Below are positions 4,251 through 56,350 of a stretch of 64,000 nt of DNA, piece after piece (the first letter of the stretch is position 1; every line of letters begins with the position of its first letter). A model generated the notes under the pieces. The model had not been told where the DNA came from, made no database searches, and worked only from the letters and a program-made list of their open reading frames with translations. The stretch comes from Arachis hypogaea (taxonomy: Eukaryota > Streptophyta > Magnoliopsida > Fabales > Fabaceae): assembly GCF_003086295.3 (NCBI RefSeq), contig NC_092039.1:73365649-73429648 (forward strand), written 5' to 3'. The position numbers were made by a program, and so were the translations under genes.

Positions 4251-5176
4251 TAGAAGATCAAGATGAGTAGTATATATAGGAGTAGTTTTAAACTATAGAG
4301 AAGCTTGGCACTTTTGGGAACTACTCTCTATAGATTTACTTTTCTGCACTTTTAGCATGGATTCTTCTTTTCGGCCATTTTTCATTTCTAGAGCTATGAA
4401 CAACTAAACCCCTTTCATTGGGTTAGGGAGCTCTGTTGTAATTTGATGGATCAATTATAGTTTTCATTCTTCTTCTTCTTTCTTTTCTCTTGATCTTACT
4501 AGAAAACTTTCGATCTTAATTCAATTGGTTAGTTGTCTTGGAAAAGAAACTCTCCATAATTGGATCTCCTTTGAGCCTTGGAAAAGGGATGAGGAGATCA
4601 TGCTAGAAATGCTTTCTCATGTTGGACCAAATTGGGATTTGGGCGGATATAGTGACATGTAATCCTCCCAACACTTTGATTTGGAAATACATGTGGTATA
4701 ATAAGTGACCACACTTCATCTCTTCCCATGAGCAATTAAATCAAGGAATTGGGCAATTGTTCAAGCTTAGAGAGATTGGATTGCCAAGGAATTGGGATTC
4801 AATCACTTAAGATTTCCAAGGAGATCAATGAATGCATTGATTGAGGAAGAGATGAGAATGAACTTGATCCAGAGAATGTAACATCTCCTGAACCCAATGA
4901 TTTCCCCATTTCTAATCTTACCCATTCTCTTTACTTTCTGCCATTTAATTTCATGCTCATTACCCTAAATCCCCATTTAAGATTCTGCACTTTATTGAAA
5001 TTTCTGCATCTCAATCTAAATTCTGTTTAGCTCAACTAGCATATTTTTCTAACTAAAATTGCTTGACCAATCAATCCTTGTGGGACTCGACCTCACTCTA
5101 TTGTGAGTTTTACTTGACGACAATTCGGTATACTTGCCGAAGGAAAATTTGTTGAGAGACAAGTTTTCATGCATCA
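4251..5176 (+). repeat. Partial 5' LTR of element B
   Basis: Matches 13720-14670 of the 3' LTR with few differences and ends GCATCA. The part equivalent to 12470-13719, which holds the hairpin array, is absent. Contains TATATATA at 4271-4278 and the CGACC-hairpin CTCAC-tctatt-GTGAG (5092-5107). Confidence 0.85.
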
Positions 5177-5182
5177 AGTTTA

Positions 5183-5200: not shown

Positions 5201-5474
5201 TTGATTTTGAATCAACAATGATTAAGTTTGAAGATCACTAGATTGAGCATTTTTCCTTTGTTTATTTGATTCAGTCAATTTCCTTTAGTTTGTTTTAATT
5301 TCTTCCTAACCCCCTGCACCCTCTTTTAATTTTCTGTTCTTTCTTTCTTTATTTGATTACAATTCTGCTCACTAACCCACTAACTGTTTGATAATTTATA
5401 TCACTCACACTAACAATTACTCTAACAAGAATAGTTTCTTCATTTTATCTCCTGTTGTGCAATCTGTTTGTTGT

Positions 5475-6452
5475 ATGACAGGGAGAAGAGAAAGAGTTTC
5501 AACATCCTTTGATTCAGAACCTGAAAGAACCCTTTGGAGACTAAGAAGGGAAGCAAGAGGGAAAAGCATTATTGGTGCTGAGGCAGACGAGGAAGAGTAT
5601 TTTGAACCCAACATGGAAGAGAATTTGGAGAACAATCATGAAGAAGAAGCTCATAATCATGTCAGAGAAGGCCATGCAAACCGTGCTGGGCAAGAAAGGA
5701 GAGTTTTAGGATCCTATATCAATCCTAATCCAGGAAACTGTGGAAGCAGTATTCAGAAGCCCACCATACATGCCAACAATTTCGAGCTAAAACCCCAGCT
5801 CATCACTCTTGTGCAGAATAATTGCTCATTTGGAGGGGGTGCTCAAGAAGATCCTAATCAACATTTAACCACCTTCCTGAGGATTCGTAACACGGTGAAG
5901 TCCAATGGAGTCCATCCAGATGTCTATAGGTTGCTCTTGTTCCCTTTTTCACTCAGGGACAAGGCATCCAAATGGCATGAATCCTTCCCAAAGGAAAGAT
6001 TAACTAATTGGGAAGAAGTGGTGAACAAGTTTTTAGCAAGATTTTACCCTCCTCAAAGGATCAATAGGCTAAGAGCTGAGGTGCAGACTTTTAGACAACA
6101 AGATGGTGAGACACTTTATGAAGCATGGGAGAGATTCAAAGACCTAACAAGAAGATGCCCACCAGAGATGTTTAATGAGTGGGCCCAACTTCACATCTTC
6201 TATGAAGGTCTTTCTTATGAGTCAAAGAAGGCTGTAGATCATTCATCAGGAGGCTCTCTAAACAAGAAGAAAACCATTGAAGAAGCCATAGATGTCATTG
6301 AAACAGTTGCTGAAAATGACTACTTCTATGCCTCCGAAAGAAGTAACACCAGAGGAGTAATGGAGCTGAACCACATGGATGCATTGTTAGCTCAAAACAA
6401 GATGATCACCAAGCAGCTAGCAGATCTTACTAAGAAGGTGGAGGAGAACTAA
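5475..6452 (+). pseudogene. gag: Gag polyprotein (element B), frame ends in a premature stop
   Basis: Structural protein that would form the cytoplasmic virus-like particle. ATG at 5475 is preferred over upstream non-ATG starts; 325 residues to TAA at 6450-6452. A basic N-terminus and an acidic stretch (about residues 40-70) lead into the retrotransposon gag domain (about residues 130-250), with WHESFPKERLTNWEEVVNKF and FYPPQRINRLRAEVQTFRQQ. A helical C-terminal part (DALLAQNKMITKQLADLTKK) follows. The same frame continues past the stop with an Asn/Gln/Gly-rich stretch until about 6650-6700, where coding moves to the pol frame. The normal gene is therefore probably one gag-pol frame, now broken by one stop and one frameshift. 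Confidence 0.85.
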
Positions 6453-6589
6453 GTTGCAACAGCCACCACCTCATCACCAGCTCAAGAAGGAGTAAACGTA
6501 GGAGAAGAAGGTGACTGGGAGCAAGCCAACTATGTTGGAAACTCACCTAGACAAGTCCATGATCCATACTCCAAAACTTACAACTCTGG

Positions 6590-9500
6590 ATGGAGAAATC
6601 ATCCCAACTTTGGATGGGGAAACCAACAAGACCAAGGACAAGATCAGAGACGCCACAACCTCAACTCCAACAACAATGCAACTCATCAAAACACCCACCG
6701 AGATATTACCAACATCCATCTAACCAACCTTCTCAACCACCTAATCTCAACCCACCATCATTAACAGATTATAGGCTATCTAAGATTGAGACTCTACTTG
6801 AAAACTTATGCAAGGAAATTCAAGATAGTAAAGCTTTCCGGGAAGAAGTGCAATCCAACATGCAGAATCAAGATGCTGCCATCAAGAAACTGGAAACACA
6901 GATTGAGTTCTTATTCAAGCAAGTCCTTGGACACAACAATTGTAACAATATTAACTCAATACCAAAGGAGGAATGTCAAGCTATCACCCTCAAAAGTGGG
7001 AAGAAATTGAAGGAGACCCACAAGAAACCACCAGAGAAGAAATTGGATGAAGAAAACAAAGGACATGAGGAAGCTCAACCCTCAAACTCTAAGCCACATC
7101 AAGAAGGAGAAGCACTCAAACCATGCTTCTCAAAGGCTCCACATCCCCAGCAGCTGCAATTAAAGAAGAGGGGAGAGGACAACCAATTCTCAAGATTCTT
7201 GGAAATCTTCAAGAAACTACAAATAAACATACCATTTACTGAAGCAATAGAGCAAATGCCACTCTATGCCAAGTTCTTGAAGGAATTGATGACCAAGAAG
7301 AGAAGCTGGAAGAATAATGAGACCGTGGTGCTCACGGAAGAATGCAGCGCCATCATCCAACACAAATTCTCCCAGAAATTGAAGGATCCTGGGAGTTTCC
7401 AAATCCCTTGTATCATTGGGGAAATCACTGTGGAAAAGGCTTTATGTGATCTAGGAGCCAGCATAAATCTAATGTCTCTAGCAATGATGAAAAAAATGAT
7501 GATTGGGGAAGCCAAACCAACAAGAATGGCGCTACAACTAGCAGACAGATCATTCAAATTTTCCCATGGGATAGTAGAAGATCTGTTGTTGAAGGTGGGA
7601 TACTTCATCTTTCCAGCAGATTTTGTGGTATTAGACATGGAGGAAGGAGCTAAGACTTCCATCATCCTGGGAAGACCATTCTTAGCCATTGTCCGAGCCA
7701 TTATTGATGTCCAAAAGGGTGAACTTGTCCTTAGATTACATGAGGGGAAAATGACATTCAATGTGTTTAAGGCTATGAGTTACCCACACAACTCATTGGG
7801 AGAATGTATGAGGTTGGACTCCGTAGAAGATTTGGTACAGGAAACTCTTGAAGAAGAACTTGAAGCATCAACAGAAGAAGAATTAGCAGCAAGCGAAGAA
7901 GCTGCAACCGCCGAAATACATGTTCAAGGCATGATAGAAGAAAAGGAGGAAGGAAAAGAAGTGCCTAAACTGGAGCTTAAAGCACTGCCAACCACTCTTA
8001 AATATGCATACTTGGCAGAAAATAAAAGTTATCCAGTGATCATAAATTCAGCCCTTAGCCAAGAACAAGAGGAAGAGTTGCTCCAAGTCCTACGAAAGCA
8101 TAAGGATGGCATTGGATGGACACTTGCTGACTTGAAAGGAATTAGTTCAACCATATGCATGCATAAGATACTCCTGGAAGAAGGTGCCAAACCATCCATT
8201 CAGCCCCAAAGAAGGTTGAATCCAGCAATGAAGGAAGTAGTGCAGAAAGAAGTTATGAAATTGTGGCAGGGTGGAGTAATCTATCCAATTTCAGATAGCC
8301 AATGGGTCAGTCCAGTTCAAGTGGTTCCCAAGAAAGGAGGAATCACTGGGGTGCCCAACGAAAGGAATGAGCTAATCCCTACAAGAACCATCATAGGATG
8401 GAGAATGTGTATTGACTATAGGAAACTCAATGAAGCCACTAGAAAAGATCATTTTCCACTTCCCTTCATGGATCAAATGTTGGAAAGACTTGCGGGACAT
8501 GCATATTATTATTTTTTAGATGGTTATTCAGGATATAACCAAATAGTGGTTGATCCAAGAGACCAAGAAAAAACATCATTCACATGCCCATATGGAGTGT
8601 TTTCCTACAGGCGCATGCCATTCGGGCTATGTAATGCACCAGCAACTTTTCAACGCTGCATGCTCTCCATATTTTCAGATATGATAGAGAAGTTCATTGA
8701 AGTTTTCATGGATGACTTCTCAGTATTTGGAGATTTCTTCCCTAATTGCCTAAACCATCTTGCCTTGGTATTGAAAAGATGTCAAGAAACCAATTTAGTC
8801 TTGAACTGGGAAAAATGTCATTTCATGGTGACAGAGGGAATAGTTCTTGGCCATAAAGTTTCTAATCAAGGCATTGAGGTAGACAGAGCTAAGGTGGAGC
8901 TAATTGAAAAGTTACTTCCACCAAGTGATGTCAAGGCGATTAGGAGCTTTTTAGGACATTCTGGCTTCTACAGAAGGTTTATTAAAGATTTTTCAAAGAT
9001 AGCTAAGCCCTTAAGCAATCTCCTAATGTCTGATACACCATTTATTTTTGATAAGAAATGTATGCTAGCATTTGAAAACTTGAAAAAGAGGCTATCCTCA
9101 ACTCCTATCATCACCCCTCCTGATTGGAATCTACCATTCGAACTGATGTGTGATGCATCTGATTTCGCAGTTGGGGCAGTGTTAGGACAGAGAAAAGAAA
9201 GTTTGGTGCATGTGATATACTATACCAGCAAGGTCCTTAATGATACTTAAAAGAATTATACCACTACAGAAAAGGAGTTGCAGGCAATAGTTTTTGCATT
9301 TGACAAATTTAGATCATATCTTATTGGCTCTAAAGTTATTGTTTTCACTGATCACACAGTATTCAAATATGTATTTACCAAACAAGAGTCAAAACCAAGA
9401 CTAATTAGATGGATCTTATTGTTGCAGGAGTTCAACATTGAAATTAGAGACAAAAAGGGTGTGGAGAACAAAGTGGCAGACCATCTATCCAGAATCCCTT

Positions 9501-10858
9501 GTGAGAAGGATGATGCCCATGAGACAAGTGTAAATGAATTCTTCCCAGATGAGCAGCTAATGATGATTCATAAAGCACCATGGTTTGCGGATATTGCAAA
9601 TTTTAAAGCAGCCGGTGACTTACCCCCTAGAATCAACAAATATCAAAGAAGGAAACTCATCAATGATGCCAAGTATTTCATTTGGGATGAACCCTATCTC
9701 TTTAAGAAATTCTCAGATGGAATACTTAGGAGGTGCATCTCAGAGGAAGAAGGACGAAGGGTCCAGTGGAGTTGCTATAGTGCTAGTTATGGAGGTCACT
9801 TTGGAGGAGAAAGAACTGCCGCAAAGGTGCTGCAATGTGGGTTCTTCTGGCCCACTATCTTCAAAGATGCTAAGGAATTGGTGAGAAGCTGCAACGAATG
9901 CCAAAGGGCTGGCAACCTACCCAAGAGAAATGAGATGCCACAGCAATACATTCTAGAACTTGAACTATTTGATGTATGGGGAATCGATTTCATGGGACTA
10001 TTCCCACCCTCATATTCAAACAGGTTTATCTTGGTGGCAGTAGACTATGTATCTAAGTGGGTGGAGGCAGTGGCGACCCTAACTAATGACAACAAGGTAG
10101 TCATAAACTTTCTTCGAAGGAATATCTTCACCAGGTTTGGAGTCCCACGAGCCCTCATTAGTGATAGAGGGAGCCATTTCTGCAATAGACCATTGGAAGC
10201 CCTACTCCTGCGATATGGGGTGAAGCATAAGGTTGCCACACCTTATCAGCCCCAAACAAGTGGACAAACAGATATATCTAACCGAGAGTTGAAAAGGATT
10301 TTGGAAAAGACTGTGGGGATATCAAGAAAGGACTGGGCGAAGAAGCTAGATGATGCTCTTTGGGCATATAGGATAGCCTTCAAAAAACCAATTGGGATGT
10401 CCCCATATCAACTGGTGTATGGTAAGGCTTGTCACTTGCCGTTAGAGCTGGAGCACAAGGCCTCCTGGGCCCTTAAAACACTGAACCTAGATAGCACTGC
10501 TGCTGGTGAAAAAAGGGTTCTACAGCTTCAAGAATTGGAAGAATTTAGATCTCAAGCCTATGAAAATACCAAAATCTATAAGAAAAAAGCAAAAAGGAGA
10601 CATGATCTCAATTTGGTACCCAGAAGTTTCGAAGAAGGGCAACATGTGCTTCTCTACAACTCTAGACTGAAACTCTTTCTTGGGAAACTCAAATCAAGAT
10701 GGTCGGGACCCTTCCTAGTCACAAAAGTCTCACTTTATGGACACATAGAAATAATGGAAGAAGGCTCAAAGAGAAGATTCACTGTGAATGGACAAAGACT
10801 CAAACACTACTTGGGCAGCATGGGGGAGAACCCCAAACAGAAGTACAACCTCAACTAA
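6590..10858 (+). pseudogene. pol: Pol polyprotein: protease, RT, RNase H, integrase (element B)
   Basis: One reading frame broken only by TAA at 9248-9250; the frame resumes at once and ends TAA 10856-10858. Residues before about 6690 are in the wrong frame relative to gag. Aspartic protease: D287-L-G-A-S and ILGRPFLA. Reverse transcriptase: FLDGYSGYNQ and the catalytic box F706-M-D-D709. RNase H: CDASD with Asp 855. Integrase: the zinc region has Tyr where the first His is expected (CYSASYGGH). Core Asp codons lie at 9986 and 10163, but the third position, 36 residues on (10271), is Asp and not the usual Glu. The C-terminal SRWSGPF chromatin-side motif is present. RT looks chemically intact, integrase doubtful. 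Athila-type by order and motif style. Confidence 0.9.
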
Positions 10859-10867
10859 GGAAAGAAT

Positions 10868-10916
10868 CGTCGAGCTAGCGACGCTAAAAAAGTGCTTTGT
10901 TGGGAGGCAACCCAAC
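10868..10916 (+). other. Double stem-loop downstream of pol (element B)
   Basis: SL1 CGTCG-agctag-CGACG (10868-10883) and SL2 GTTGGG-aggcaa-CCCAAC (10899-10916), starting 10 bp after the pol stop. Equivalent structures with different paired bases occur in C, D, I and K. Confidence 0.65.
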
Positions 10917-12469: not shown

Positions 12470-14670
12470 TGATGCCAGGGCATCTAGGCCAGTTTCACTG
12501 ACCTTTTCTTTACTGTTTTAGGGTAGTTTCATGCATTTTCTTAGTGAATAAGGCAAGTTTTGGATGAAATTACACTTACACCTTGATTCAAGCAACTTTT
12601 GTGAAATTTGCATAATTTCATGAGTATTTTGCTAGAATTGCATGATAAATTGATGATGCATAATCTCATGACTTTGGCTAGAACATTGATGCACTTTAAT
12701 TGCTTGTTTTTAGAGCAAAGGAAGCAAGGAAGAACCACGTTAGTATTCACGTTAACCTAGATAACATGAACACTAAAGTGGAATGGTAAAGCTTGCAACG
12801 TTAATGAGAAAAGTGATCACCAATAACGCCTGCGAAGCCATCCAAATCTCATGTTACTTTCCACGTTAACTAAGTTAACGTGGTAGTTAACGTAGAAGAA
12901 AAAGAAACTCCAACGTTAAGAGAAAATGTGAACACCACTAACGTTGGAGAACTTGGCAATGATCCACGTTAAGAGTCATGTTAACTTAGTTAACGTAAAC
13001 TCTAACGTGGAAGAGGAAAACAAAAGCCAACGTTAGTGACACTCACTTTTGTCACTAACATTGGACCAACTAGCATTGCTTACGTTAACTTTCACGTTAA
13101 GACTATTAACGTGAAAGTTAACGTGGAGTTGAAATCAAAGAGCCAATGTTAGTGACACTCACTTTTGTCACTAACGTTGGAAGATGGCATCACTACTACG
13201 TTAAGAGCTACGTTGACTTAGTTAACGTGAGTTCCAACGTAGAGAATGTGGCATTTGGAGCGTAAGTGACAAAGGTGAGTGTCACTAACGCTCTCGAAGG
13301 TGGATCACACCTACGTTAAGAGTCACGTTAGCTATACTAACGTGGACTCTAACGTAGGAACAAAGGGGCACTAAGCAACGTTAATGGGAAAAGTGATTCC
13401 CATTAACGTTCGCGAATGGGTATAAGCCAACGTTATTGGGAAAAGTGAGTCCCAATAACGTTGGCCAAACATTGAAAAGGCAACGTTAGTGGTCACATTA
13501 AGACCAATAACGTTAGATTTAACGTGGGCATATAAGGTTGGAACGTTAGTGGAAAAAGTGAATGCCACTAACGTTCTCGAACCCATAATGGCAATCAACG
13601 TTAAATCTTACTAAATACCCAAAGCCTAATTCATATTTCTCTGTAAGTTGGGCCCACTAAAGATGAGAACTGCTTCAACTCAAGATCCAAAGCCCACATC
13701 CAAGACTTAAAGAACTCACTAGAAGATCAAGAGGAGTAGTATATATAGGAGTAGTTTTGAACTATAGAGAAGCTTGGCACTTTTGGGAACTACTCTCTAT
13801 TTATTTACTTTTCTGCACTTTTAGCATGGATTCTTCTTTTCGGCCATTTTTCATTTCTAGAGCGATGAACAACTAAACCCCTTTCATTGGGTTAGGGAGC
13901 TCTGTTGTAATTTGATGGATCAATTATAGTTGTCATTCTTCTTCTTCTTTCTTTTCTCATGATCTTACTAGAAAGCTTTCGATCTTAATTCAATTGGTTA
14001 GTTGTATTGGAAAAGAAACTCTCCATAATTGGATCTCCTTTAAGCCTTGGAAAAGGGATGAGGAGATCATGCTAGAAATGCTTTCTCATGTTGGACTAAA
14101 TTAGGGTTTGGGCGGATATAGTGACATGTAATCCTCCCAACACTTTGATTTGGAAATACATATGGTATAATCAGTGACCATACTTCATCTCTTCCCATGA
14201 GCAATTAAATCACGGAATTGGGCAATTGTTCAAGATTAGAGAGATTGGATTGCCAAGGAATTGGGATTCAATCACTTAAGATTGCCAAGGAGATCAATGA
14301 ATGCATTTATTGAGGAAGAGATGAGAATGAACTTAATCCGGAGAATGCAACATCTCCTGAACCCAATGATTTCCCCATTTCTGATCTTACCCACTCTCTT
14401 TACTTTTTGCCATTTAAATTCATGCTCATTACCCCAAATCCCCATTTAAGATTCTGCACTTTAATTTCTGTTATTTACTTTCCAGCCATTTAAATTTCTG
14501 CATCTCAATCTAAATTCTGTTTAGCTCAATTAGCATATTCTTCTAACTAAAATTGCTTGACCAATCAATCCTTGTGAGATTTGACCTCACTCTATTGTGA
14601 GTTTTACTTGACGATAATTCGGTATACTTGTCGAAGGGAAATTTGTTGAGAGACAAGTTTTCACACATCA
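12470..14670 (+). repeat. 3' LTR of element B
   Basis: 2201 bp, TGATG...CATCA (5-bp inverted ends). The U3-start hairpin is GATGCC-ag-GGCATC (12471-12484). A long hairpin array fills 12730-13625, TATATATA starts at 13740, and the stem CTCAC-tctatt-GTGAG lies at 14586-14601. Here the bases before that stem have drifted (TGAGATTTGACC versus TGGGACTCGACC in the 5' copy). Confidence 0.9.
12730..13625 (+). repeat. Array of long inverted repeats built on AACGTTA (B LTR)
   Basis: At least six hairpins with arms of 12-15 bp flanking AAAAGTGA-like or CTCACTTTT-like loops, for example arms AACGTTAGTGAC/GTCACTAACGTT near 13028-13060 and 13142-13180, and arms at 13376-13412, 13430-13462 and 13540-13577. 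They alternate with ACGTTAAC...GTTAACGT palindromes. Confidence 0.8.
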
Positions 14671-17621
14671 AATACCCATCAGGCGTGATTGAAGACATGA
14701 TTGTCAAGGTTGGGCCACCATTACCACCATTACCACCATCCATGAAATATGCATTTCTGGGAGAAGCTGATACCTTTCCTGTAATCATAAGCTCTACCTT
14801 AGAGCCACAGGAAGAGGAAGCACTAATTCAAGTGCTAAGGACACACAAGACAGCTCTTGGGTGGTCCATCAGTGATCTTAAGGGCATTAGCCCAGCCAGA
14901 TGCATGCACAAGATCCTATTGGAGGATGACGCTAAGCCAGTGGTTCAACCACAGAGGCGGTTGAATCCATCCATGAAAGAGGTGGTGCAGAAGGAGGTGG
15001 TGTAGAAGGAAGTCACTAAATTACTAGAGGCTGGGATTATTTATCCTATTTCTGATAGGCCCTGGGTAAGTCCTGTCCAAGTCATCCCTAAGAAGGGTGG
15101 CATGACAGTGGTTCATAATGAAAAAAATGAACTGGTTCCTACAAGAACAGTTAGAGGGTGGCGTATGTGTATTGATTACAGAAGGCTCAATATAGCTACC
15201 AGAAATGATTATTTTCCTTTACCATTCATAGACCAGATGCTAGAAAGACTAGCAGGTCATGAATACTTCTGCTTCCTGGATAGATATTCAGGTTATAATC
15301 AAATTGCAGTAGATCCCCAAGACCAAGAGAAAACAACATTCACATGCCCATCCGGAGTATTTGCATATAGAAGGATGCCATTTGGTCTATGCAATGCACC
15401 TGCAACCTTTCAAAGGTGCATGCTCTCTATTTTCTCTGATATGGTGGAAAAATTTCTAGAAGTCTTCATGGATGGCTTTTCAGTATTTGGAGACTCATTC
15501 AGCTCCTGTCTTGACCATCTAGCACTTGTTCTAAAGAGGTGTCAAGAGACTAACCTGGTTTTAAACTGGGAGAAATGTCACTTTATGGGGACTGAAGGAA
15601 TTTTCCTTAGACACAAAATTTCGAACAAGGGAATAGAGGTGGATCAAGCTAAGGTAGAGGTAATTGAAAAATTACCACCACCTACCAATGTTAAGGCAAT
15701 CAGAAGCTTTCTGGGGCATGCAGGATTCTATAGGAGGTTTATAAAAGATTTTTCAAAAATCGCCAAACCTCTGAGTAATCTGCTAGCTGCTGACAGGCTA
15801 TTTATTTTTGATAAGGAGTGTCTGCAGGCATTTGAGACTCTGAAAGCTAAGCTGGTCATAGCACCAGTCATCTCTGCACCAGACTGGACATTACCATTTG
15901 AACTAATGTGTAATGCCACTGACCATGCCATTAATGCAGTTTTGGGACAAAGGCATGACAAGCTTCTGCACATCATTTATTATGCCAGTCGTGTTTTAAA
16001 TGACACACAGAAAAACTACACAACCACAGAAAAAGAGTTACTTGCAGTGGTTTACGCCATTGACAAGTTCAGATCTTATTTAGTAGGATAAAAAGTGATT
16101 GTGTACACTGACCATGTTGCTCTTAAATATCTACTCACAAAGCAGGATTCAAAACCCAGACTCATAAGATGGGTGTTGATTTTGCAAGAGTTTGATATAG
16201 AAATAAGAGACAGAAAAGAGACAGAGAACCAAGTAGCAGATCACCTATCCCGAATAGAACCAGTAGAAGGGGCGTCCCTCCCTCTTACTGAAATCTCTGA
16301 AAACTTTCTAGATGAGCAACTCTTTGCCATCCAGAAAGTACCATAGTTTACAGATATTGCAAACTACAAGGCTGTGAGATTCATACCCAAAGAGTATAGT
16401 AGGCAGCAATCAAAGAAATTGATCACAGATGCAAAGTACTATCTTTGGGATGAACCATATCTCTTCAAGAGATGTGCGGACGGAGTAATCCATAGATGTG
16501 TGCCTAAAGAAGAAGCACAGAAGATTCTATGGCACTGCCATGGATCACAATATGGAGGACATTTTGGAAGTGAGCGAACAGCCACAAGAGTTCTCCAATG
16601 TGGCTTCTATTGGCCTACTCTCCATAAAGACTCCCGAGAGTTTGTACTTAATTGTGACAGTTGCCAAAGATCTGGCAATCTGCCTCACAGTTATGCCATG
16701 CCTCAACAAGGGATCTTGGAGATTGAGTTGTTTGATGTATGAGGTATTGACTTCATGGGGCCTTTCCCACCATCATACTCAAACACTTATATTCTGGTGG
16801 CAGTGGATTATGTATCCAAATGGGTGGAAGCTATTACAACACCCACTAATGATACTAAGACAGTGCTAAAATTCCTCCAGAAAGATATCTTCAGTAGATT
16901 TGGTGTCCCTAGAGTACTAATCAGTGATGGGGGCTCTCATTTCTGCAATAAATAGCTTTACTCTGCTATGGTTCGATATGGAGTCAGCCACAGGGTGGCC
17001 ACTCCATATCATCCACAGACAAATGGGCAAGCTAAAGACTTTAATAGAGAACTTAAAAGAATCCTGGAACGGACTGTGATTAACTGTAGAAGGGATTTGG
17101 CAAGAAGCTTGGATGACGCTTTGTGGGCATACAGAACAGCATTCAAGACTCCTATAGGGACCTCTCCATACCAGCTTGTGTATGGAAAAGCCTGTCACTT
17201 GCCAGTGGAATTGGAACATAAGGCCTACTGGGCAACCAGATTCCTAAACTTTGATGCCAAGTTAGCTGGAGAAAAATGATTGCTCCAGTTAAATGAGCTA
17301 GAGGAATTCAGACTCAATGCTTTCGAAAATGCAAAAATTTACAAAGAAAAAGCAAAAAGATGGCATGATAAGAAGCTGTCATCCAGAGTCTTTGAGCCAG
17401 GGCAGAAAGTTCTGCTGTTTAATTTTAGGCTCAGATTATTCCCCGGGAAATTGAAATCCCGGTGGAGAGGACCATATATGATTACAGGTGTGTCACCATA
17501 TGGATAGGTAGAGCTTCAGGATAATGATTCTAACAAAAAATTCATTGTTAATGGACAGGGAGTAAAACATTATCTTGAAAGCAATTTTGAGCAAGAATGC
17601 TCAAAACTGAGACTTGATTAA
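14671..17621 (+). pseudogene. pol: Pol fragment: PR remnant, RT, RNase H, integrase (element C)
   Basis: A single reading frame from the B border to TAA at 17619-17621, with seven in-frame stops (15003 TAG, 16089 TAA, 16344 TAG, 16740 TGA, 16953 TAG, 17277 TGA, 17505 TAG) and no frameshift. The protease region is short: the segment after MIVKVG jumps to a Pro/Leu-rich stretch and then the RT connector, so protease catalytic residues and the LGRPF region are missing. In RT the catalytic box reads F-M-D-G (second Asp lost, codon 15474) and FLDRYSGYNQ replaces the Gly form seen in B. Integrase keeps HCHGSQYGGH and CDSCQ zinc residues and core Asp codons, but has Lys (17034) at the position of the third acidic residue. 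Clearly inactive. Confidence 0.9.
14979..15008 (+). repeat. 15-bp tandem duplication carrying a stop codon
   Basis: GAGGTGGTGCAGAAG is followed at once by GAGGTGGTGTAGAAG. The one-base difference makes TAG at 15003-15005. The B pol gene has no such duplication at the equivalent place. Confidence 0.8.
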
Positions 17622-17633
17622 AGCTCAGTAATA

Positions 17634-17680
17634 GTCCAGCTAAAGACAATAAAGAAGCTGTTGCTGGGAGGCAACCCAGC
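17634..17680 (+). other. Double stem-loop downstream of pol (element C)
   Basis: SL1 GTC-cagctaaa-GAC (17634-17647, weak) and SL2 GCTGGG-aggcaa-CCCAGC (17663-17680). It lies between pol and ORF3. Confidence 0.6.
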
Positions 17681-20843: not shown

Positions 20844-22135
20844 TGACGAGCGGATATTTTATACGCTTTTTGGGGGTAATTTCATGTAGATTTTAGTATG
20901 TTTTAGTTAGTTTTTAGGCAAAATTCATATTTCTGTACTTTACTATGAGTTTGTGTATTTTTCTATGATTTCAGGTATTTTTTTGCTGAAATTGAGGGAG
21001 CTGAGCAAAAATCTGATTCAGGCTGAAAAAGGACTACTGATGCTGTTGGATTCTGACCTCCCTGCACTCGGAATGAATTTTTTGGAGCTACAGAAGTCCA
21101 ATTGGCACGCTCTTAATTGGGTTGGAAAGTAGACATCTAGGGCTTTCTAGAAATATATAATAGTCCATACTTTGCGCGAAGATAAATGACGTAAACTGGC
21201 ATTTAACGCCAGTTATATGTTGCATTCTGGCGTTGAACGCCAGAAACATGTTGCAAGTTGGAGTTAAACGCGAGAAACAAGTTACAACCTGACGTTTAGC
21301 TCCAGAAACAGCCCAGGCACGTGAGAAGCTCAAGTCTCAAAATTTGATTTCTGCATTATCCATCTTAGTTTACTCATTTCCTGTAAACCTAGGTTACTAG
21401 TTTAGTATTTAAACAACTTTTAGAGACTTATTTTATATCTCATGACATCTTAGATCTAAACTTTGTACTCTTTGGCGGCATGAGTCTCTAAACTCCATTA
21501 TTAGGGGTGAGGAGCTCTGCAGCGTCTCGATGAATTAATGCAATTATTTCTGTTTTCTATTCAAACACGCTTGTTTCTATCTAAGATATTCATTTGCACT
21601 TCAATATGAAGAAGGTGATGATCCGTGACACTCATCACCATTCTCAACCTATGAATGCGTGCCTGACAACCACCTCCGTTCTACATTAGATTGAATGAGT
21701 ATCTCTTGGATTCCTTAATCAGAGTCTTCGTGGTATAAGCTAGAATCCATTGGCAGCATCCTTGAGAATTCGAAAAGTCTAAACCTTGTCTGTGGTATTC
21801 CGAGTAGGATTCATGAATTGGATGACTGTGACGAGCTTCAAACTCACGAGTGTTGGGCGTAGCAACAGACGCAAAAGGATCAATGGATCCTATTCCAGCA
21901 TGAGTTAGAACCGACAGATGATTAGCCGTGCGGTGACAGCACACCTGGACCATTTTTACTGAGAGGATGGATGGTAGCCATTGACAACGGTGATCCACCA
22001 ACACACAGCTTGCCATAGAAGGAACCTTGCGTGCGTGAAGAAAATGACAGTAGGAAAGCAAAGATTCAGAAGACAAAGCATCTCCAAAACTCCAACACAT
22101 TCTCCATTACTGCGTACAATTACTAATTTCATGCT
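20844..22135 (+). repeat. 3' LTR of element C, left part
   Basis: Starts TGACGAGCGG after the border module. Contains a palindrome array at about 21195-21310. Interrupted at 22135 by element D and resuming at 29617. Diverged in sequence and length (about 1490 bp in total) from the A LTR. Confidence 0.85.
22131..22135 (+). repeat. Target-site duplication ATGCT, left of D
   Basis: Identical to 29612-29616 on the other side of element D. Confidence 0.95.
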
Positions 22136-23544: not shown

Positions 23545-23547
23545 AAA

Positions 23548-23565: not shown

Positions 23566-23661
23566 ATTGCAAATGTGTGCCTTATTATTGGTTATTATAA
23601 ATATTTTTCAAAAAAAAATTTCCTTTTTCATTAGTTTTTGTTTTTATTATCTCTCACTACT

Positions 23662-25268: not shown

Positions 25269-25318
25269 GTCCAACTTAAGGACTATAACTAGAAGTGCTA
25301 GGTGGGAGACAACCCACC
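25269..25318 (+). other. Double stem-loop downstream of the D ORF
   Basis: SL1 GTCC-aacttaa-GGAC (25269-25283), SL2 GGTGGG-agacaa-CCCACC (25301-25318), starting 17 bp after the ORF stop. Confidence 0.65.
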
Positions 25319-28163: not shown

Positions 28164-28202
28164 TTAGCATGAGGACATGCTAATGTTTAAGTGTGGGGAG
28201 CT
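28164..28202 (+). promoter_or_regulatory. 3' LTR border module (element D)
   Basis: Eight-bp stem TTAGCATG-agga-CATGCTAA (28164-28183), then GTTTAAGTGTGGGGAG and the LTR. Same loop as in the A/B/C modules but different stem bases. Confidence 0.65.
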
Positions 28203-29611: not shown

Positions 29612-29616
29612 ATGCT
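29612..29616 (+). repeat. Target-site duplication ATGCT, right of D
   Basis: Matches 22131-22135. Confidence 0.95.
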
Positions 29617-35462: not shown

Positions 35463-37114
35463 TGATGAGTGGATAATTTATACGCTTTTTGGCATTATTT
35501 TTAGTATGTTTTTAGTATGTTTTAGTTAGTTTTTATTATATTTTTATTAGTTTTTAGTTAAAATTCACTTTTCTGGACTTTACTATGAGTTTGTGTATTT
35601 TTCTGTGATTTCAGGTATTTTCTGGCTGAAATTGAGGGACCTGAGCAAAAATATGATTCAGAGGCTGAAAAGGACTGCAGATGCTGTTGGATTCTGACCT
35701 CCCTGCACTTGAAGTGAAGTTTCTAGAGCTACAGAAGCCCAATTGGAGCGCTCTCAACTGCGTTGGAAAGTAGACATCCTGGGCTTTCTAGCAATGTATA
35801 ATAGTCCATACTTTGTCCGAGATTTGATGGCCCAAACAGGCGTTCTAAGTCAGCTCAAGAATTCTCGTGTAAAACGCCAGAACTAGCACAAGAATGGGAG
35901 TTAAACACCCAAACTGGCACAAAAGCTGGCGTTTAACTCCAAGAAGAGTCTCTACACGGAAATGCTTCAATGCTCAGCCCAAGCACACACCAAGTGGGCC
36001 CAGAAGTGGATTTTTATGTCATTTACTCATTTCTATAAACCCTAGCTACTAGTTCTCTATAAGTAGGACCTGTTGCTATTGTATTTTCATCTTTTGATCA
36101 CCTTAGATATTGAAGATCATCTTTGGACATCTAGTTCATAGATTATTGGGTGCTGGCCTCTCGGCCATGCCTAGACCTTGTTCTTATGTATTTTCAACGG
36201 TAGAGTTTCTACACACCATAGATTAAGGTGTGGAGCTCTGCTGTACCTCGAGTATTAATGCAATTACTATTGTTCTTCTATTCAATTCAGCTTATTCTTG
36301 TTCTAAGATATTCATTCGCACCCAAGAACATGATGAATGTGATGATTATGTGACGCTCATCATCATTCTCACTTATGAACGCGTGCCTGACAACCACTTC
36401 CGTTCTACAAGCAAACAAGGCTTGAATTTTTATCTCTTGGATTTCTTAATCAGAATCTTCATGGTATAAGCTAGAATTGATGGCGGCATTCAAGAGAACC
36501 CGGAAGGTCTAAACTTTGTCTGTGGTATTCTGAGTAGGATTCAAGGATTGAATGACTATGACGATCTTCAAACTCGCGATTGTGGGGCGTTAGTGACAGA
36601 CGCAAAAGAATCACTGGATTCTATTCCGACATGATCAAGAACCGACAACTGAATAGCCGTGCTGTGACAGAGCGCGTTGAACATTTTCACTAAGAGGACG
36701 GGACTGTATCCATTGACAACGGTGATGCCCAACATACAGCTTGCCATGGAAAGGAGTAAGAAGGATTGGATGAAGACAGTAGGAAAGCAGAGAGATGGAA
36801 GGGACAAAGCATCTCCATACGCTTATCTGAAATTCTCACCAATGAATTACATAAGTATCTCTATCTTTATTTTATGCTTTATTCATAAATCATTCATAAC
36901 CATTTGAATCTGCCTGACTGAGATTTACAAGATGACCATAGCTTGCTTCATACCAACAATCTCCGTGGGATCGACCCTTACTCGCGTAAGGTTTATTACT
37001 TGGACGACCCAGTGCACTTGCTGGTTAGTTGTGCAAAGTTGTGATAAAGAGTTGAGATTGCAATTGAGCGTACCATGTTGATGGCACCATGGATGATCAC
37101 AATTTCGTGCACCA
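35463..37114 (+). mobile_element. Solo LTR H (A family)
   Basis: 1652 bp, TGATGAGTGG...GTGCACCA, perfect TSD CTCAC, inserted in E's ORF3. TATAAGTA at 36058-36065, CGACC-hairpin CCTTAC-tcgc-GTAAGG at 36976-36991. Confidence 0.93.
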
Positions 37115-37586
37115 CTCACCCAATCTGCCCCTACAACACATATGTCATTGACGATTTCTTCACAATCAAGGTCAGCGCTCATTCTTGAATGGTAACTAGC
37201 CTCTTCAAAGGGTCTTGCTCTTAATTGAAGAACCTTCATGATGGTGTTGGGGCTAAAATCAATTTTCATCCCTCTCACATAGCTCTTAAAAGTGGGAGCC
37301 TTCGCGGTGTCTTCTCTCACCACATTAACATAGAACTCTTGATGAGAGTTACGTTTATTTTTGTAAGTGGGTCCGTAAGCAATTGCCACCTACTTCTTTC
37401 AATCTTTCCTTTTATCTCTGGACATTCATCATCTTTACATTGGAAAGCAAGCTCGGGTAATATCTCCATGGGTTTCATCCAATTGAATTGGATTTAATGG
37501 AACACGGACTTGAACCTCCACTTATCAAAAGGGATATCCTCCACGGGCTCCTTTCCTTTTCGTCTCTTTGAACTTGATGATGCCAT
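37115..37586 (-). pseudogene. ORF3 N-terminal part (element E)
   Basis: ATG on the minus strand at 37586, followed by a Ser/Lys/Arg-rich leader (MASSSSKRRKGKEP), a stop at 37494-37496 and at least one frameshift. An open stretch then carries EFYVNVVREDTAKAPTF and MKIDFSPNTIMKVLQLRARP up to solo LTR H. The LDFSP/IDFSP motif is shared with A's ORF3. Reading resumes on the far side of H at 35462. Confidence 0.7.
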
Positions 37587-39932: not shown

Positions 39933-41714
39933 CAACATCAAACTTAAATCTTGCTTGTCCCCAAGCAAGCAAAGAATCATGCAATATAGTTTGACAATCC
40001 AAGGTGAGAAGAATAGCAACTTAATGTTCATGGTTGGCTAGTTTTCTATACATGCTACAATCACAAAAGAAATTCAAATGATTGATGCTTCTTTCTAGCT
40101 CATTTTATGAAATCTTTTCTTTATGTTCCTTCCTTGAAACAAGTTTTTAATTCTCTTATTCGCTTATCATTTTGGGTGCTTTGCACCATGAGTTGAAAAT
40201 AAAGCTACGACTCTAAATGCTTTGTTTTCAAGTATTACCACTTGATACATAAGCACCACAAGCATTAATTAGAGGACTTCTTTAAGCTCATTTGTTTCTT
40301 GTCTTACTCTCTAATCATTGATGCTCAGAGCCTTGAGCTTTGAGGGAGTGATTTTTGCACTTGAGCCTAGCCTTGACTCTAAATGTTTTGTTTTCAAGCT
40401 TTTTTCCTGATACATAAACACCAGAAGTACTTGACTAATAAATTGTCATTGGTACTCAGAGCCTTTAGCTTTCTCATTCTTTGCCTTTTTCTTTTCTTGC
40501 CTTAATTTCATTTTGCTTTTTCAAGGTTTTCATAATTTCCAAAAATTTCATAAAATGTCCTAGATGAAAACTTCAATTAAATAAATTCAAATGCAATTGA
40601 GCAATAACAATTAATCATGCTAGCCTTCCAATACTTATCTACCCATGCTAAGTTCTTCTTTAATGACCTTGTTTGTTTACGATCATGATTTCTTAATTAC
40701 TTTGACTTACAAAATTCAAGATGGTAGTCATAATGTCACAGCAACATGTTACAATTCAAAATTCAGGCTATGCTTTATTCACAAGGAGCAGCCACACATG
40801 CATAGAAAGGAATAAAAGTCAATCATGCAATTTAAAGTGCTGGAAACAAATAAGAAGAAAAAGGAACGTTACCACCTTGTAGTTCATCTTCATTGTTGTT
40901 GTCCTTTTCCTATTATTCTTCCCCTTCCCATACCAAACTTAGAATGCTTGCTTATTCTCAAGAAACAATTAAAATAGTAGTGATGGGGTCTATGATGGAT
41001 CATGAGTGTCTTACACAATAAAATGTCAGTAGTACATGTGTTTAAGCAAGCAAAATTAAAAATAATAATGAAGGCACAGGAAACAGAGACATTGTGATTG
41101 CAAAAATAAGAAGGTGTGCATGATACATTGCATAAAATATAAGTGGCATACCAAACTTAGTGTGACACTTTCACTTGGAATTGATGTAAGTATCCAGTAA
41201 AGATTGGAAACAAATTTTTGTTGCATAGCAACACCAAACTTAGAATGTAATCACATGTCAATTTATTTGAACTAAAACTAAGCAAAGGAAGCTATCATAT
41301 GTTAATAACACAATCACCAAGAGAAACAAATATCACGAGTAAAGGTTCCTTGGTGAAGCATTAACATAGATAGTTAAGGACAAAAAAAGAAAGTATAAAA
41401 ATTAAAGAGATGACTAAAACAATGATAAAGAAAAACAGAATAGAGAACTTCAAAGCAAAGGCATTATGATTGTACAAACAAGTGGTGTTGCTGGGTACAT
41501 TGCACAGTAAGTTAAGTGGCATACCCATCTTAGAAACTTAGTGTGACACTTTCATTTTAGAATGATGCAAGCATCCAGAAAGATTAAAAACAGATTGTTG
41601 CAGGGCAACACCAAACTTAGAATGCAGTTATATGCCAAATTATTGAAAATAAACAAAGCAAAGAATGGAAATGTTACCTACAGTTGGGTTGCCTCCCAAC
41701 AAGTGCTCTTTTAG
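39933..41714 (-). other. 3' noncoding interior of element I
   Basis: Border module: TTGCTTG/CAAGCAA hairpin at 39951-39968 next to CAACATCAAACTTAAAT. Purine tract on the minus strand at 40467-40525. At least three further copies of CTAAGTTTGGTGTT or close variants on the minus strand (near 40943, 41229 and 41607). Confidence 0.7.
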
Positions 41715-41730
41715 TGTCATTAGCTTGACA
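41683..41730 (-). other. Double stem-loop at the 3' end of the element I ORF
   Basis: On the minus strand SL1 is TGTCA-agctaa-TGACA (41730-41715) and SL2 GTTGGG-aggcaa-CCCAAC (41700-41683). The ORF stop codon TAA (41722-41720) lies inside SL1. Confidence 0.65.
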
Positions 41731-42104: not shown

Positions 42105-42645
42105 TGTTCCGAGGATTACCTGAAACCGTAGGCCGATCTCGGACGAGATCTTCTATACTGGTCGGTGCTGTTATGTCCGACTTGATGATGGTGGCCGGAG
42201 CCGCCGGTTTCGACTTGTTGGACTTGGTGGTGGTGCTGATCATTCGTCACCGGAGGGTGGGGGTACCTGCAAGTGACTCCGATGCTTAAGTTAGCAAGGG
42301 TATTAAGCAGGTTTTTAGTAGAATCAGAGTATGAGTTATACCTGGGTGCTCCAGTGTATTTATAATGGTGTGGAGTGACCTTTCTGGAGATAAGATAGTT
42401 ATCTTATCTTATCTTATCTTATCTTCGAGTGAGGTCATCTTATCTTCAAGGGAACCGCCCTTATCTCTATAGGCTTGGACTGCCTTAGGATTTGGGTCGT
42501 GTTCCTCTGTTGGGCCCTTTTTGGGCTCTTCCTGGTGATTGGGCCGAGCTCTCTGAGAAGAGGTCAGATTGTCCTGACCTAAAGAGGTCGGTCGATTTGT
42601 CAGTAGAACATCCCGGGTCGGACAACTCGACCCAGGGTATGAACA
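42105..42645 (-). repeat. 3' LTR of element J
   Basis: 541 bp. Minus-strand TATAAATA at 42364-42357. The TTATC microsatellite around 42395-42425 is two units longer than in the other LTR. The copies differ at roughly 6 percent of positions by eye. Confidence 0.93.
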
Positions 42646-49398: not shown

Positions 49399-50796
49399 TC
49401 ACCGGTCCCCTCCCCACACTTGAGAACAAGCATCGTCCTCGATGCTAAATCGGAGGATCAGTGGAAGGTACAACAGTGTGCTCTGGCTCTGTCTGTGGCA
49501 GTGGGACTGGCTCCTCATGAGCCTGTGTGGTCTCTGTGGTGGCAGGGGCAGCTGGAGGGGCATCCTGCTGAGTCGGCACCTCCGCATCCTCCTCCTGATG
49601 ATCCTGCTCATCGGAGGCCGGAGAATCGGGAAGCGGAGGTAGCTCGGCACCCAGAGAGATGAGCACCTGGTCCATCCGATCTAATCGGCGTCTGACATGG
49701 AGTCTCTCACGCTCTAGGAATCGAAATAAACGCTAGACCAGTAGGTAGGTGGGCTCAGGGACTAAGGTGGAGCTGTAGATGAAGATGGGGCTGCGGCTAT
49801 AGAAGAGGATGGGGCTGCTGTAGGGGCTGATGGTGAAGGTGTCCCCACGACTGCTCTAGCCCTAGAACGGCGTCTAGCAGGGGGCTTCTCATGCACCCAA
49901 CCACCCCAGGGAATAGTAACCTCCCTGTCATCTGCATCAGGGGGTGGCGGTGTCACATCATCGTCCAGCCAGGGAACCTCAGCTAGGGACGCCATACTTG
50001 TGACCAAAGTAGGAAATGGAAGTAGGCCACGAATATGCGCCCGCCACATGCACTGTCGGATAAGTCACGGAAAAGAGACATCCTTCCCCTCCATAACACA
50101 CCCGATCAGCAGAAGCATCTCTATGGGGGATCTCAGAGAAGTGAGTGGTAGGCAAGAAATAGTGGGCAAAGATCATCTGCCAAGTCCTGGCCTCTCTAGT
50201 CAAGTGAGCAAATAGCATCCCCTTAGGCTTGGTATTGTTGGCATCCATAACCCATGTGGCATCTGGTAAACCAATGACGCTCCTAAGTGCCTCATAATCA
50301 AAAGTCATTCTGGGTATGGCCAACTCGGCCTGCTGATGGGCACACAAGTCATCAGGAATATGTCGGCACTGTAATGCCTCCCCAATAGCAGTCTCAATAA
50401 TCATGATCTCTCTACCCCTCACCTGAACCGAATCTAAAGTGGGGCGGAAGAAGTTGCAGTAGAATTCCTTGACCAAGAGATGTTAATATCCCCCAAATCT
50501 CTATCAACAAAATCGAGACCCAACTCAAGTATCGGGCTAGTAATGGACCGTCGGACATCATTGGGTAGGAGCAATTTCTTCTCGATATTCAGCTTAGTCG
50601 TTCGATACTTGGAAAATCGAAGCTCACAGTAGAGATTGGGGAACTTAGTCGGATCGGTAGAAGGTAACTGCTGATTTTCTTTTTCTTCGTCGTTAAGTGG
50701 ATTCTTAGCATAGTTCTTGTAGATGGCGGGAATAGAGGGTGTAGAGTATTTTCTTTTCTTGGAGGCAGTCGCTATAGCTTTCCCTTTATCCGACAT
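49399..50796 (-). pseudogene. ORF3, putative plant transposon protein (element K)
   Basis: Start ATG at 50796: MSDKGKAIATASKKRKYSTP, a basic Ser/Lys-rich leader like those of A, C and E. Frameshifts near 50475, 50050 and 49700 join successive parts: the EFYCNFF block with MTFDYEALRSVIGLPD, then a Pro/Asp/Arg-rich stretch, then an acidic Gln/Pro-rich tail (QDAPPAAPATTETTQAHEEP). EFYCNFF corresponds to EFYANAW in A and EFYVNVV in E. The 3' end overlaps a copy of CAAGTGTGGGGAGG (about 49410-49424 on the minus strand), the LTR-border motif. The exact end is uncertain. Confidence 0.65.
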
Positions 50797-52934: not shown

Positions 52935-52984
52935 GGTGGGGTGCCTCCCACCTAGCACTTTTAGTTTAAGTCCTTAAGTTGGAC
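52935..52984 (-). other. Double stem-loop downstream of K ORF1
   Basis: On the minus strand SL1 GTCC-aacttaa-GGAC (52984-52970), SL2 GGTGGG-aggcac-CCCACC (52952-52935), 18 bp after the ORF1 stop. Confidence 0.65.
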
Positions 52985-53002: not shown

Positions 53003-54781
53003 TCATGGTGGCTTATGTTTGTACTCATCCTTGAATCTCCAAGGATCCATGCTCCTCAAGTGGTTGACAGAATTTCCAACCATTTTTATTAAGCTTGGGC
53101 AGAGTTCCACCCAAGATATGAGTCCCCATAGTTGGTCTTCATATGTCGAACCGGGACCCCATATCTTATCTTCACACCAGTCTTCAATTTGATCTTTATA
53201 CTTTTCCTTTCCGGGTGGTTGTCATATAGAATTCTCTTTACCATACCAAGCCTTCCTTCGATACCCTTGTACAGTGGCATTCCTCCAATCATCGTCCCTA
53301 TACCTTGAAGCTTTTACCTTGATGAGCCTAATTCCTAACTTGCAACCACTACACAACTCATTCTTGCTTTTAGTTCCACAAAGAGCTCTAAGTTGACCAT
53401 CATTTTCAATCAAACCATATTCAAGTGAGAAAGTAAAGCTTAGGGATAGAAATTTTACCCACTTTAATGTTGTGATGGATGGTGACTTGGGAAAGGAGAC
53501 TTCCCCACACTTAGACAATGCAAGGTCTACTTCCTTGTGCTCGTCTTTGTGTATTTCCACCTCTTTGCGAGCTTCTTCAATTTCAACCTTTTCCCCTTTT
53601 TCTCTTGGCTTGGTGTTGTCTTCAAGAGCTTCAGTTTCTTGCCCGATGAGAGGTGATTCAAAATTGGATAGGAATTCATTGATGGACAAATCCATCTCTT
53701 GACCAACCTCTTCATATTCTTCAATTTCGATATACACCATGTCATTTTTGTTTTCCTTGGGGGGTTGTGCACACTCTTTTATAGTTTCAACTTCATGTCC
53801 AATGGGAGAGGATTCCATTGTAGAGAGAAATTCATCCATGATTGAATCCATTTCTTGATAAGCCTCTTCCAAGTCTTCAACGATGATATGCCTTGGAGGT
53901 TGCGCACCCTCCTCAACATCAATATCAAGCTTCTTGGAAGGGTTCTCTATGATGCTACATTCCCATGGACTTTCAACATCTCCCAAATTTTCAACCACTT
54001 CTTCCTTTTCTTCAATGATCATAGGCTCCTCCAATTGTTCTAGCACAAAATTTGAGTCCTCCTTTTCCACCGAATTTCCCAATTTCTCCTTCATGCTTTG
54101 TTCTTCTTTTGACTTTTCAAATGGGGCTACGGAAGCACCTTGAGTAATCAAACATTGGTGGGTTAAAGTGTGCACCACCTTGGTCAAATTGGTCACAAAC
54201 TCAAGTGTATCCCGCTTCATGGCTTCTTGTCCTTGAAGTAACAAAGTGAGAGGATCGTCTATTGGGGCTTGGGGCGAATAGGAAGGTTCATTATTTTGGA
54301 GAGAGGGTTCATGGTAGGAGGGTGGTTCTTCTTCGTAGAATTGTGGAGATGGTGAGTATTGAAGTGGTTCTTGGTAATAATCATGATAGAGTTGTGGTGG
54401 TTCTAAAGGTTCTTGCTCAAAATGGTCATAAAAATATAGTATGGATGATTGGTCATATGATGGATATGGATCATAGGAAGGTGCTTGATGTGGCGAGGCT
54501 TGTGAGTATGGTTGAGATTTATGTTGAGGATATGGTTCATAGGCGTATGGTGGTGGTTCTTGAAAGTCACAAGGTGATCCACCATAGCCATTGGGTTGAT
54601 ATGCATCATGGAATGGCTTTTCTTCATAGTGCATTGGTGGAGGTTGTTGCCATGAAGATTGATCATATGCATATGGCTCCTTCCACCTGTGATTGTTCCA
54701 TCCTTGATACACATCCTCATTGAAGCTCTCATTACCTATAACATAATTAGAACCAAACTCATAGCCAAAGTGAGAATTCAT
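53003..54781 (-). pseudogene. Element K ORF1, unrecognised Pro/Tyr/Gln-rich then Trp-rich protein
   Basis: ATG at 54781, about 105 bp after the PBS. One frame of 593 codons ending TGA at 53005-53003, with a single TGA at about 53224 after residue 519. N-terminal part rich in Pro, Tyr, Gln and His (MNSHFGYEFGSNY, DQSSWQQPPPMHYEE). Then a Glu-rich middle with KEEQSMKEKLGNSVEK and AQPPRHIIVEDLEEA. Then ITTLKWVKFLSLSF, LEYGLIENDGQLRALC, KIWGPG, LWGLISW and the end YKHKPP. Order, motifs and end match D's ORF, which lies in an element with different LTRs; I know of no named family. A gag-like packaging role is one possibility, based only on position. Confidence 0.8.
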
Positions 54782-54886
54782 GGTGGAAAGGGAAAATAAA
54801 ATTCTACACTAGCAAATGAAGCAAAAAGCAAGATATTTACACTATTCACATATGTACAATAACCAATAACATAACACCATTGCAAC

Positions 54887-56345: not shown

Positions 56346-56350
56346 GCCGA
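56346..56350 (+). repeat. Target-site duplication GCCGA, right of K
   Basis: Matches 46197-46201. Confidence 0.95.

Follow-up and report, generated by a model that had tools for sequence, protein, structure and literature searches.

The window analysed here, a stretch of 64,000 nucleotides of the peanut (Arachis hypogaea) genome, is a nest of LTR elements: B, C and D, together with K, which lies inside J, which in turn lies inside I (Table 1). They may belong to the Athila lineage, to judge from Pfam gag-pol domains, PF20167 and a tRNA-Asp-type primer site. B, D, K and J have primer sites of the TGGCGCCGTTGCCGGGGA type, those of D and B deviating from it by one or two letters. Antisense to J there is an open frame of 309 amino acids (44548-45477, plus strand) with no Pfam match, which to us is reminiscent of the antisense ORFs of Tat/Retand elements.

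Table 1. Elements, reading frames and hairpins of the window (window coordinates)
Feature	Position	Strand	Evidence or remark
Element B, LTR-like repeats	4251-5177 and 13720-14671		gag-pol
B gag and pol frames, interrupted	5376..10858	+	Pfam domains
Stop codon TAA of B pol	10856..10858	+	9 nt 5' of SL1
SL1 of B, CGTCG-AGCTAG-CGACG	10868..10883	+	sequence, fold, covariance model
Linker of B, contains AAGTGCTT	10884..10898	+	sequence, alignment
SL2 of B, GTTGGG-AGGCAA-CCCAAC	10899..10916	+	sequence, covariance model, fold of core
Element C			pol, then hairpins, then env-like ORF
SL1 of C, GTC/GAC	17634..17647	+	3 bp, absent from lowest-energy fold; stop TAA 12 nt upstream
SL2 of C, GCTGGG-AGGCAA-CCCAGC	17663..17680	+	sequence, model, fold
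Element D, LTRs	22133-23545 and 28200-29612
ORF of D, same family as K's	23650-25251	+	without Pfam match
SL1 of D, GTCC-AACTTAA-GGAC	25269..25283	+	stop TAG 17 nt upstream
SL2 of D, GGTGGG-AGACAA-CCCACC	25301..25318	+	sequence, model, fold
Env-like (PF20167) frame downstream of I's hairpins	36925..37389	-	under Pfam cut-off
SL2 of I, GTTGGG-AGGCAA-CCCAAC	41683..41700	-	sequence, model, fold
SL1 of I, TGTCA-AGCTAA-TGACA	41715..41730	-	loop includes stop codon of I ORF, 41720-41722
Element J, LTRs	42105-42645 and 62098-62627		target duplication ACACT
Element K, LTRs	46202-47642 and 54908-56348
Env-like (PF20167) frame downstream of K's hairpins	49979..50482	-	under Pfam cut-off
SL2 of K, GGTGGG-AGGCAC-CCCACC	52935..52952	-	sequence, model, fold
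SL1 of K, GTCC-AACTTAA-GGAC	52970..52984	-	TGA matching the family's full-length frame 18 nt upstream
ORF of K	53222..54808	-	without Pfam match; Arachis relatives; family dN/dS 0.40

The elements differ in what they encode. B is a gag-pol element; the non-autonomous K and D encode an ORF of about 600 codons that gives no tblastn match to the pol of B or C, and I carries another, different ORF. Twenty-seven proteins resemble the ORF of K, and the 23 that are named are all Arachis entries. Are such ORFs merely open by chance? This is ruled out by dN/dS values of 0.40 for the K family and 0.25 for the family of repeat ORFs described below (55 pairs of 11 sequences each), which argue that the non-autonomous ORFs encode selected proteins; the values for three pol pairs are 0.06-0.12.

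What unites most of these elements is a module of two hairpins, SL1 and SL2, joined by a linker. Reading of the sequence found both hairpins, with complementary arms, at all five places where the earlier note had located them. That note had counted five element families; there are four, D and K being one family (ORFs 44% identical). It had given the SL2 loop as AGGCAA or a close variant, which is right as it stands for B, C and I, while D has AGACAA and K has AGGCAC. Of the five cores of 51-54 nt, four (B, D, I and K) form the two hairpins when folded alone; that of C forms SL2 only, the 3-bp SL1 being replaced by an alternative pairing. When stretches of 121-131 nt are folded, both hairpins appear in D, I and K, and the SL2 of B and the SL1 of C each pair elsewhere. 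With D and K withheld, a covariance model whose training set was B, C, I and an outside copy (L130) recovers both D (E 1.1e-9) and K (E 4.5e-9), and the next best match within the window has E 0.036. In J, where likeness to the pol of B is down to about 30%, the same model finds no hairpin module. A 14-mer searched at up to three mismatches is not unusual in the window: it has 8 matches, a number that 8 of 100 shuffles reach.

Some further candidates for the identity or the contacts of the module were looked at and found no support. In Rfam 15 no family reaches its gathering score for the module. The Pistol ribozyme (RF02679) gives 14.8 bits in B against a gathering score of 34.5, with much of the model missing, and no Pistol match was listed for 16 further loci, in a larger search space. 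Pairing of the SL2 loop with the primer site (GGCAAC/GTTGCC) is at odds with the relatives of K, which have AGACAC or AGGCAC, while the primer site of K is canonical. A pseudoknot between the SL1 loop and the linker is, judged by eye, inconsistent in C and in L259, a copy from outside peanut. The only Rfam match elsewhere in the window is snoR71 (6066-6173, minus strand), antisense within the gag frame of B; at 40.6 bits against a cut-off of 40, it possibly arose by chance.

How common is the module? The 12-mer GGGAGGCAACCC occurs 56,090 times in the genome (28,079 + 28,011), against 18 times (7 + 11) for the same letters reversed. The full SL1-linker-SL2 model was matched end to end by all 90 of the copies retrieved (90 of 100 listed places, all within the first 16.4 Mb of one contig), and SL1 is broken in one of them (L140). 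With the five of the window and three others, these give 98 aligned matches, of which 76 have the linker AAGCGCTT and 90 the SL1 loop AGCTA. Since a changed loop-closing G with intact GCGCTT and AGGCAA is found in just 758 genome copies, the inner stem and the loop of SL2 look nearly fixed; the changed-G copies retrieved (L226-L255) were left out of the alignment. The linker AAGCGCTT contains a CpG, and some copies read AAGTGCTT or AAGCACTT, as methylated repeats would, yet most of the aligned copies retain it. For the comparison of flanks, 27 representatives were chosen by a greedy script; because dissimilar flanks were the selection criterion, their low flank identity is partly by construction, as is the value of 0.98 for the searched 12-mer.

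The earlier note had taken the paired base changes as the sign of a selected fold, and the larger sample bears this out. Among 56 distinct sequences, 92.4% of the stem cells pair (97.9% in SL2 and a lower 85.7% in SL1), compared with 84.3% when the 3' letters are shuffled and 20-40% in controls with slid partners. The covariation score is 0.271 versus 0.129 in the shuffles, and none of 500 shuffles reaches either the score or the pairing fraction. Shuffles of the 3' letters ignore kinship, and for this reason two tree-based nulls were built: in the first, every branch retains its own substitutions, and in the second, branch lengths and the rate of each column are retained. L140, with its broken SL1, was excluded from these nulls and from the R-scape-like scoring. 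The fraction paired, 0.924, was attained in 0 of 2000 runs of each null (means 0.62 and 0.72), and the 44 cells changed on both sides in 0 of 2000 and 1 of 2000, respectively. As for the nine pair types changed on both sides, 16 of 2000 runs of the first null and 195 of 2000 of the second have as many, so that this count, taken alone, is poor evidence against the second null. Covariation is thus present in the larger alignment and its pairing exceeds both tree nulls, though no single base pair is significant by the R-scape-like score (E 0.9 to 16 for the five variable pairs); helix pairs take 5 of the 11 top ranks among 1275 column pairs.

The second pair of SL2 offers another view of the same question. 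A purine stands at its 5' side in 5,106 copies genome-wide, and 4,857 of them (95.1%) have a pyrimidine partner at the 3' side plus a purine at pair 1; among the pyrimidine-type rows of the sample, 88 of 89 have a purine partner. The two classes are opposite, as pairing demands, although the copies are not independent events. Twenty purine-type copies picked by hand (8 GTGGG, 1 ACGGG and 11 ATGGG) comprise 14 with a Watson-Crick partner and 6 with none. At the outer pair of SL2 the commonest combination is G-U (57 of 91 rows). Because G-U is a mismatch in DNA and in antisense RNA, the pairing molecule is the sense RNA.

Might a palindrome at the DNA level, or mere common ancestry, produce all of this with no selection on RNA? 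Few families are ancestral to all the copies, the E-values of single pairs are non-significant, and the pair types changed on both sides are ordinary under one of the two nulls, all of which speaks for such an origin. It is contradicted by the outer G-U pairs, by a paired fraction that neither null reproduced, and by compensatory changes in the stems of separate families and of the three Rubiaceae-type copies described below; we regard it as very improbable. We are almost certain that the module is under selection as an RNA element of the sense strand, and it is probably a control signal that its elements need.

Is the module confined to peanut? A pattern scan of bacterial genomes returned 12 matches, of which 11 look like chance. 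The exception is L130, on a contig assembled for Candidatus Burkholderia humilis, which we take to be a leaf-nodule symbiont of Psychotria, in the coffee family. The contig, which carries L130 and L257, encodes a tnp2 transposase and a Ty3-type gag and for this reason is read as host plant DNA. A bacterial species representative contains plant transposon sequence here, apparently as host contamination (one contig tested). The covariance model finds three copies in this assembly (L257-L259); a search of 57 further genomes of the genus, with stricter filters, found no copy. The test for plant genes covers the contig of L130 and L257, and the DNA upstream of L258 may be partly bacterial. The SL1 stems of these three Rubiaceae-type copies are GTCA/TGAC, GTCG/CGAC and CATCG/CGATG, and their linkers contain AGCGCTT, AAGCGCTT and AAGCGCTA; the copies stand 14-18 nt 3' of a stop codon, the own frame of L259 ending earlier. 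If the plant reading is right, the module would be common to legumes and Rubiaceae. Similar words probably occur in cereal elements too. In viral contigs, at least 120 stretches contain TGGGAGGCAACCCA, and the 19 with a longer stem or an upstream GYGCT include none that is module-like; a scan with the linker pattern gave seven contigs, six of them among the 19 already judged not module-like, and protein-guided scans of viral contigs and an 18-mer search found nothing.

The place of the module varies little in most of the families examined. SL1 starts 9-18 nt 3' of a stop codon in 15 of 16 representatives and 26 nt in the remaining one, with stops that we assigned: those of K and L259 come from relatives, their own frames breaking earlier, and those of L281 and L282 were set by the look of the tail. 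At 30 loci, the longest of the frames that end no more than 150 nt from SL1 ends 9-27 nt before it in 27 cases, and 34, 38 and 132 nt before it in the other three. The earlier claim that the hairpins stand near the stop, whether the element is gag-pol or has an unrelated ORF, is borne out by the larger sample. Two parts of it need amendment. The hairpins mostly lie 3' of the last coding stop, as had been said, and the exception is the I family, where the stop falls within the SL1 loop and 30 of 50 proteins have that tail. In K itself the ORF stops early (53222-53224), and it is the frame of its relatives that reaches the hairpins: nine of ten, picked among matches without internal stops, run to ...KHKPP and the stop directly 5' of them. 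Four protein models of the I family (P0032, P0040, P0048 and P0068) skip the hairpin stretch and continue into downstream sequence; these are either gene-model introns or copies without the module.

The proteins that end at this place are of different kinds. In B, C, L145 and L154 the hairpins adjoin the end of pol. In L136, L137 and L139 the tails, compared by eye, are integrase-like and end in ...PP and the stop; in L137 this tail directly follows the protease frame, which suggests an internal deletion. The commonest type sampled encodes a repeat protein ending ...NSKFGVGRFQHGSEHF before the stop. The ORF ends are of three kinds that we take as unrelated (the pol or integrase tail, the K/D ORF and, judged by eye, the repeat ORF), and two ORFs of Rubiaceae type come in addition, outside this comparison. 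A stimulator of readthrough was considered for this position and found no support: in the two elements looked at, the frame past the stop is open for 26 codons in B and for two in L136, and the env-like frames are not contiguous with the upstream ORF.

The window contains another motif, TAAGTTTGGTGTTG, at positions 2294 (one letter changed), 10987, 12456 and 20830 on the plus strand and at 41619 and 41242 on the minus strand. It looks like a polypurine tract because it stands directly 5' of LTR-like repeats, which begin at 2308 and 20844; other copies lie close to the hairpins of B and I. In the commonest family (L141 and relatives) there are up to three copies at a spacing of 33 nt, at -163, -130 and -97 from SL2, encoded as an NSKFGV repeat peptide. 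To judge from the sequence, this coding array looks as if it conceals copies of the polypurine tract.

What stands behind the module? In the 27 representatives, the fraction of T after SL2 is 43, 58 and 48% in the first three bins of 20 nt and 21-24% beyond 100 nt, so that a U-rich tract follows the hairpins. The transcript then has a long way to go: the downstream LTR copy is 2.8 kb away in B, 2.9 kb in D and 5.3 kb in K. At 28 of 30 loci the longest frame in the 1.5 kb after SL2 exceeds the 95th percentile of shuffles. PF20167 was matched by all eight downstream frames given to Pfam (five families, picked after inspection), five above the curated cut-off and three (K, I and L150) under it. 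The env-like frame begins about 0.4-4.4 kb past the module; in B and D no clear second ORF was found downstream.

Two of the roles that can be imagined look forward to this second frame. One is splice control: the module would regulate a 3' splice site located 30-90 nt past SL2, used to make a spliced mRNA for the env-like ORF. The PF20167 frames fit this, and so does the acceptor-like score in the 110 nt after SL2, with a mean of 7.13 in the 27 representatives against 5.31 in shuffles (sd 0.38; highest of 200 shuffles, 6.57), a comparison that leaves the clustering of T, a source of high scores, uncorrected, since mononucleotide shuffles do not preserve it. Acceptor sites are also said to be predicted for BAGY2 and Athila, in the text available from PMC2829016. 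An env-like frame 0.4-4.4 kb further on is far for an acceptor that would serve it directly, the acceptors of B, I and L192 are weak, and we consider this role unlikely. A GTAT conserved after SL2 was also tried as a splice donor and rejected; by eye it occurs in some families only, and it is missing from the commonest. The other role is that of an initiation or reinitiation element for the downstream ORF. The module does stand between two ORFs in the families examined, but no ATG has a fixed place after SL2, the second frame is as distant as stated, and B and D have no clear one, which makes this role more doubtful still.

We favour a role at the stop codon itself, and tentatively suggest that the module is a stop-coupled RNA stability element like the RSE of Rous sarcoma virus (probability about 0.4); this places it slightly ahead of the other roles that the earlier note had left open. 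The sense transcripts of Ty3/gypsy elements of the env class (PF20167-bearing), and those of their non-autonomous partners, would carry the module as a cis-acting RNA element that takes effect where translation of the first ORF ends. Kilobases of RNA would lie beyond a ribosome terminating there, a situation that would normally expose a plant transcript to nonsense-mediated decay (NMD). The front edge of that ribosome is presumably close to SL1. A host or element factor may bind SL2, whose GGG-AGGCAA-CCC core is near-fixed, together with the U-rich tract, and the bound factor would shield the RNA, as the RSE does behind the gag stop. We infer the protection from decay and the bound factor by analogy with the RSE.

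The argument has two legs. The module is tied to the stop behind different proteins, which argues for an event at termination, and it is present in non-autonomous families, as one would expect of a signal that the RNA carries in cis. A shield like the RSE satisfies both; a packaging signal satisfies the second only. The two elements also share their setting: each is cis-acting and stands directly behind the first-ORF stop (the I family excepted), with a long or second-cistron region after it. The RSE, which we take to be unrelated in sequence, is much the larger of the two. It is described as about 400 nt long, with a minimal form of 155 nt, and as binding PTBP1 (PMC5580461), whereas the peanut module has about 50 nt and a U-rich tract. 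In plants, Turnip crinkle virus is the nearest likeness: a readthrough structure and an unstructured, pyrimidine-rich stretch of 51 nt behind its stops are reported to protect from NMD (PMC6277124). The sequence and the type of virus are different there, and the frame past the stop is short in B and L136.

Several points weigh against such a shield. In the I family the stop lies in the SL1 loop, so that a terminating ribosome would open SL1. J, with a primer site of the same type, has about 4.7 kb behind its pol homology (K excluded) and no module. Presence in non-autonomous elements would be expected equally of a packaging signal. Lastly, a hairpin placed within the protective stretch of Turnip crinkle virus is reported to have abolished protection (PMC6277124).

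Could the module be a packaging or dimerisation signal instead? The Gag of the autonomous elements would then recognise the double hairpin and the self-complementary linker AAGCGCUU, and non-autonomous elements would retain the module as a passport into the particle. Primer site and LTR-end signals aside, it is the only internal feature that we noticed, rather than searched for systematically, to be common to B, C, D/K, I and the gag-protease/integrase-tail derivatives. The linker AAGCGCTT lets two copies of the peanut core pair in silico (-35.1 versus 2 x -11.3 kcal/mol), and in most peanut copies the SL1 loop (AGCUAN) resembles the SL2 loop (AGGCAA). Against this, neither I nor L139 has an intact palindrome, the dimer predicted for L258 avoids it, and a stop 9-18 nt away behind different ORFs is left unexplained. 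Known packaging and dimerisation signals are located in the 5' leader. The likeness to psi/DIS and to the pair BARE/BARE2 lies in hairpins and a self-complementary stretch kept by dependent elements; the difference is that the peanut module stands behind the first ORF. Barley BARE2 is packaged in trans and is said to retain dimerisation and packaging signals, according to the available text of PMC3735527. Packaging is a possible reading, slightly less likely than a shield at the stop codon, and sequence does not separate the two.

How new is all this? With most subscription journals outside the search, GGGAGGCAACCC occurs in one paper, on an unrelated bacterium, and no description of such hairpins was found for Athila, for plant LTR elements or for env-class splicing; the available text of PMC11963269, PMC1142308 and PMC2829016 contains none. 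The peanut elements otherwise resemble Athila, Calypso and Diaspora in gag-pol, in the tRNA-Asp-type primer site and, for most of them, in an env-like ORF behind pol; they differ in the hairpins, which the consulted portions of PMC1142308 and PMC2829016 do not mention. The latter cites an extra polypurine tract in the pol-env linker of Athila4 and Calypso, and the former gives just 128 bp from the pol stop to the polypurine tract of soybean Diaspora. A control RNA in a retroelement is of a known kind; the place, the shape, the number of copies and the use by different partners are new to us.

Collectively, the data may describe an unnamed family of structured RNA that numbers some 50,000 copies in a single plant genome, old enough to be found in legumes and the coffee family, that would serve as the common control module of a whole guild of retrotransposons. 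Autonomous elements and several sorts of parasites with unrelated proteins would all end their first ORF at it, and it could be the plant counterpart of the retroviral stop-codon shield, or a particle passport, or both; we put this whole picture somewhat below even odds. Two questions are addressed by it: how do long, apparently faulty transcripts of plant LTR elements survive, and why are gene-poor partners so successful? Since the module has only 50 nt and nature supplies tens of thousands of variants of it, both questions can be put to the test in short reporters, and it could also serve as a tag by which such elements and their partners are found and classified across plants.
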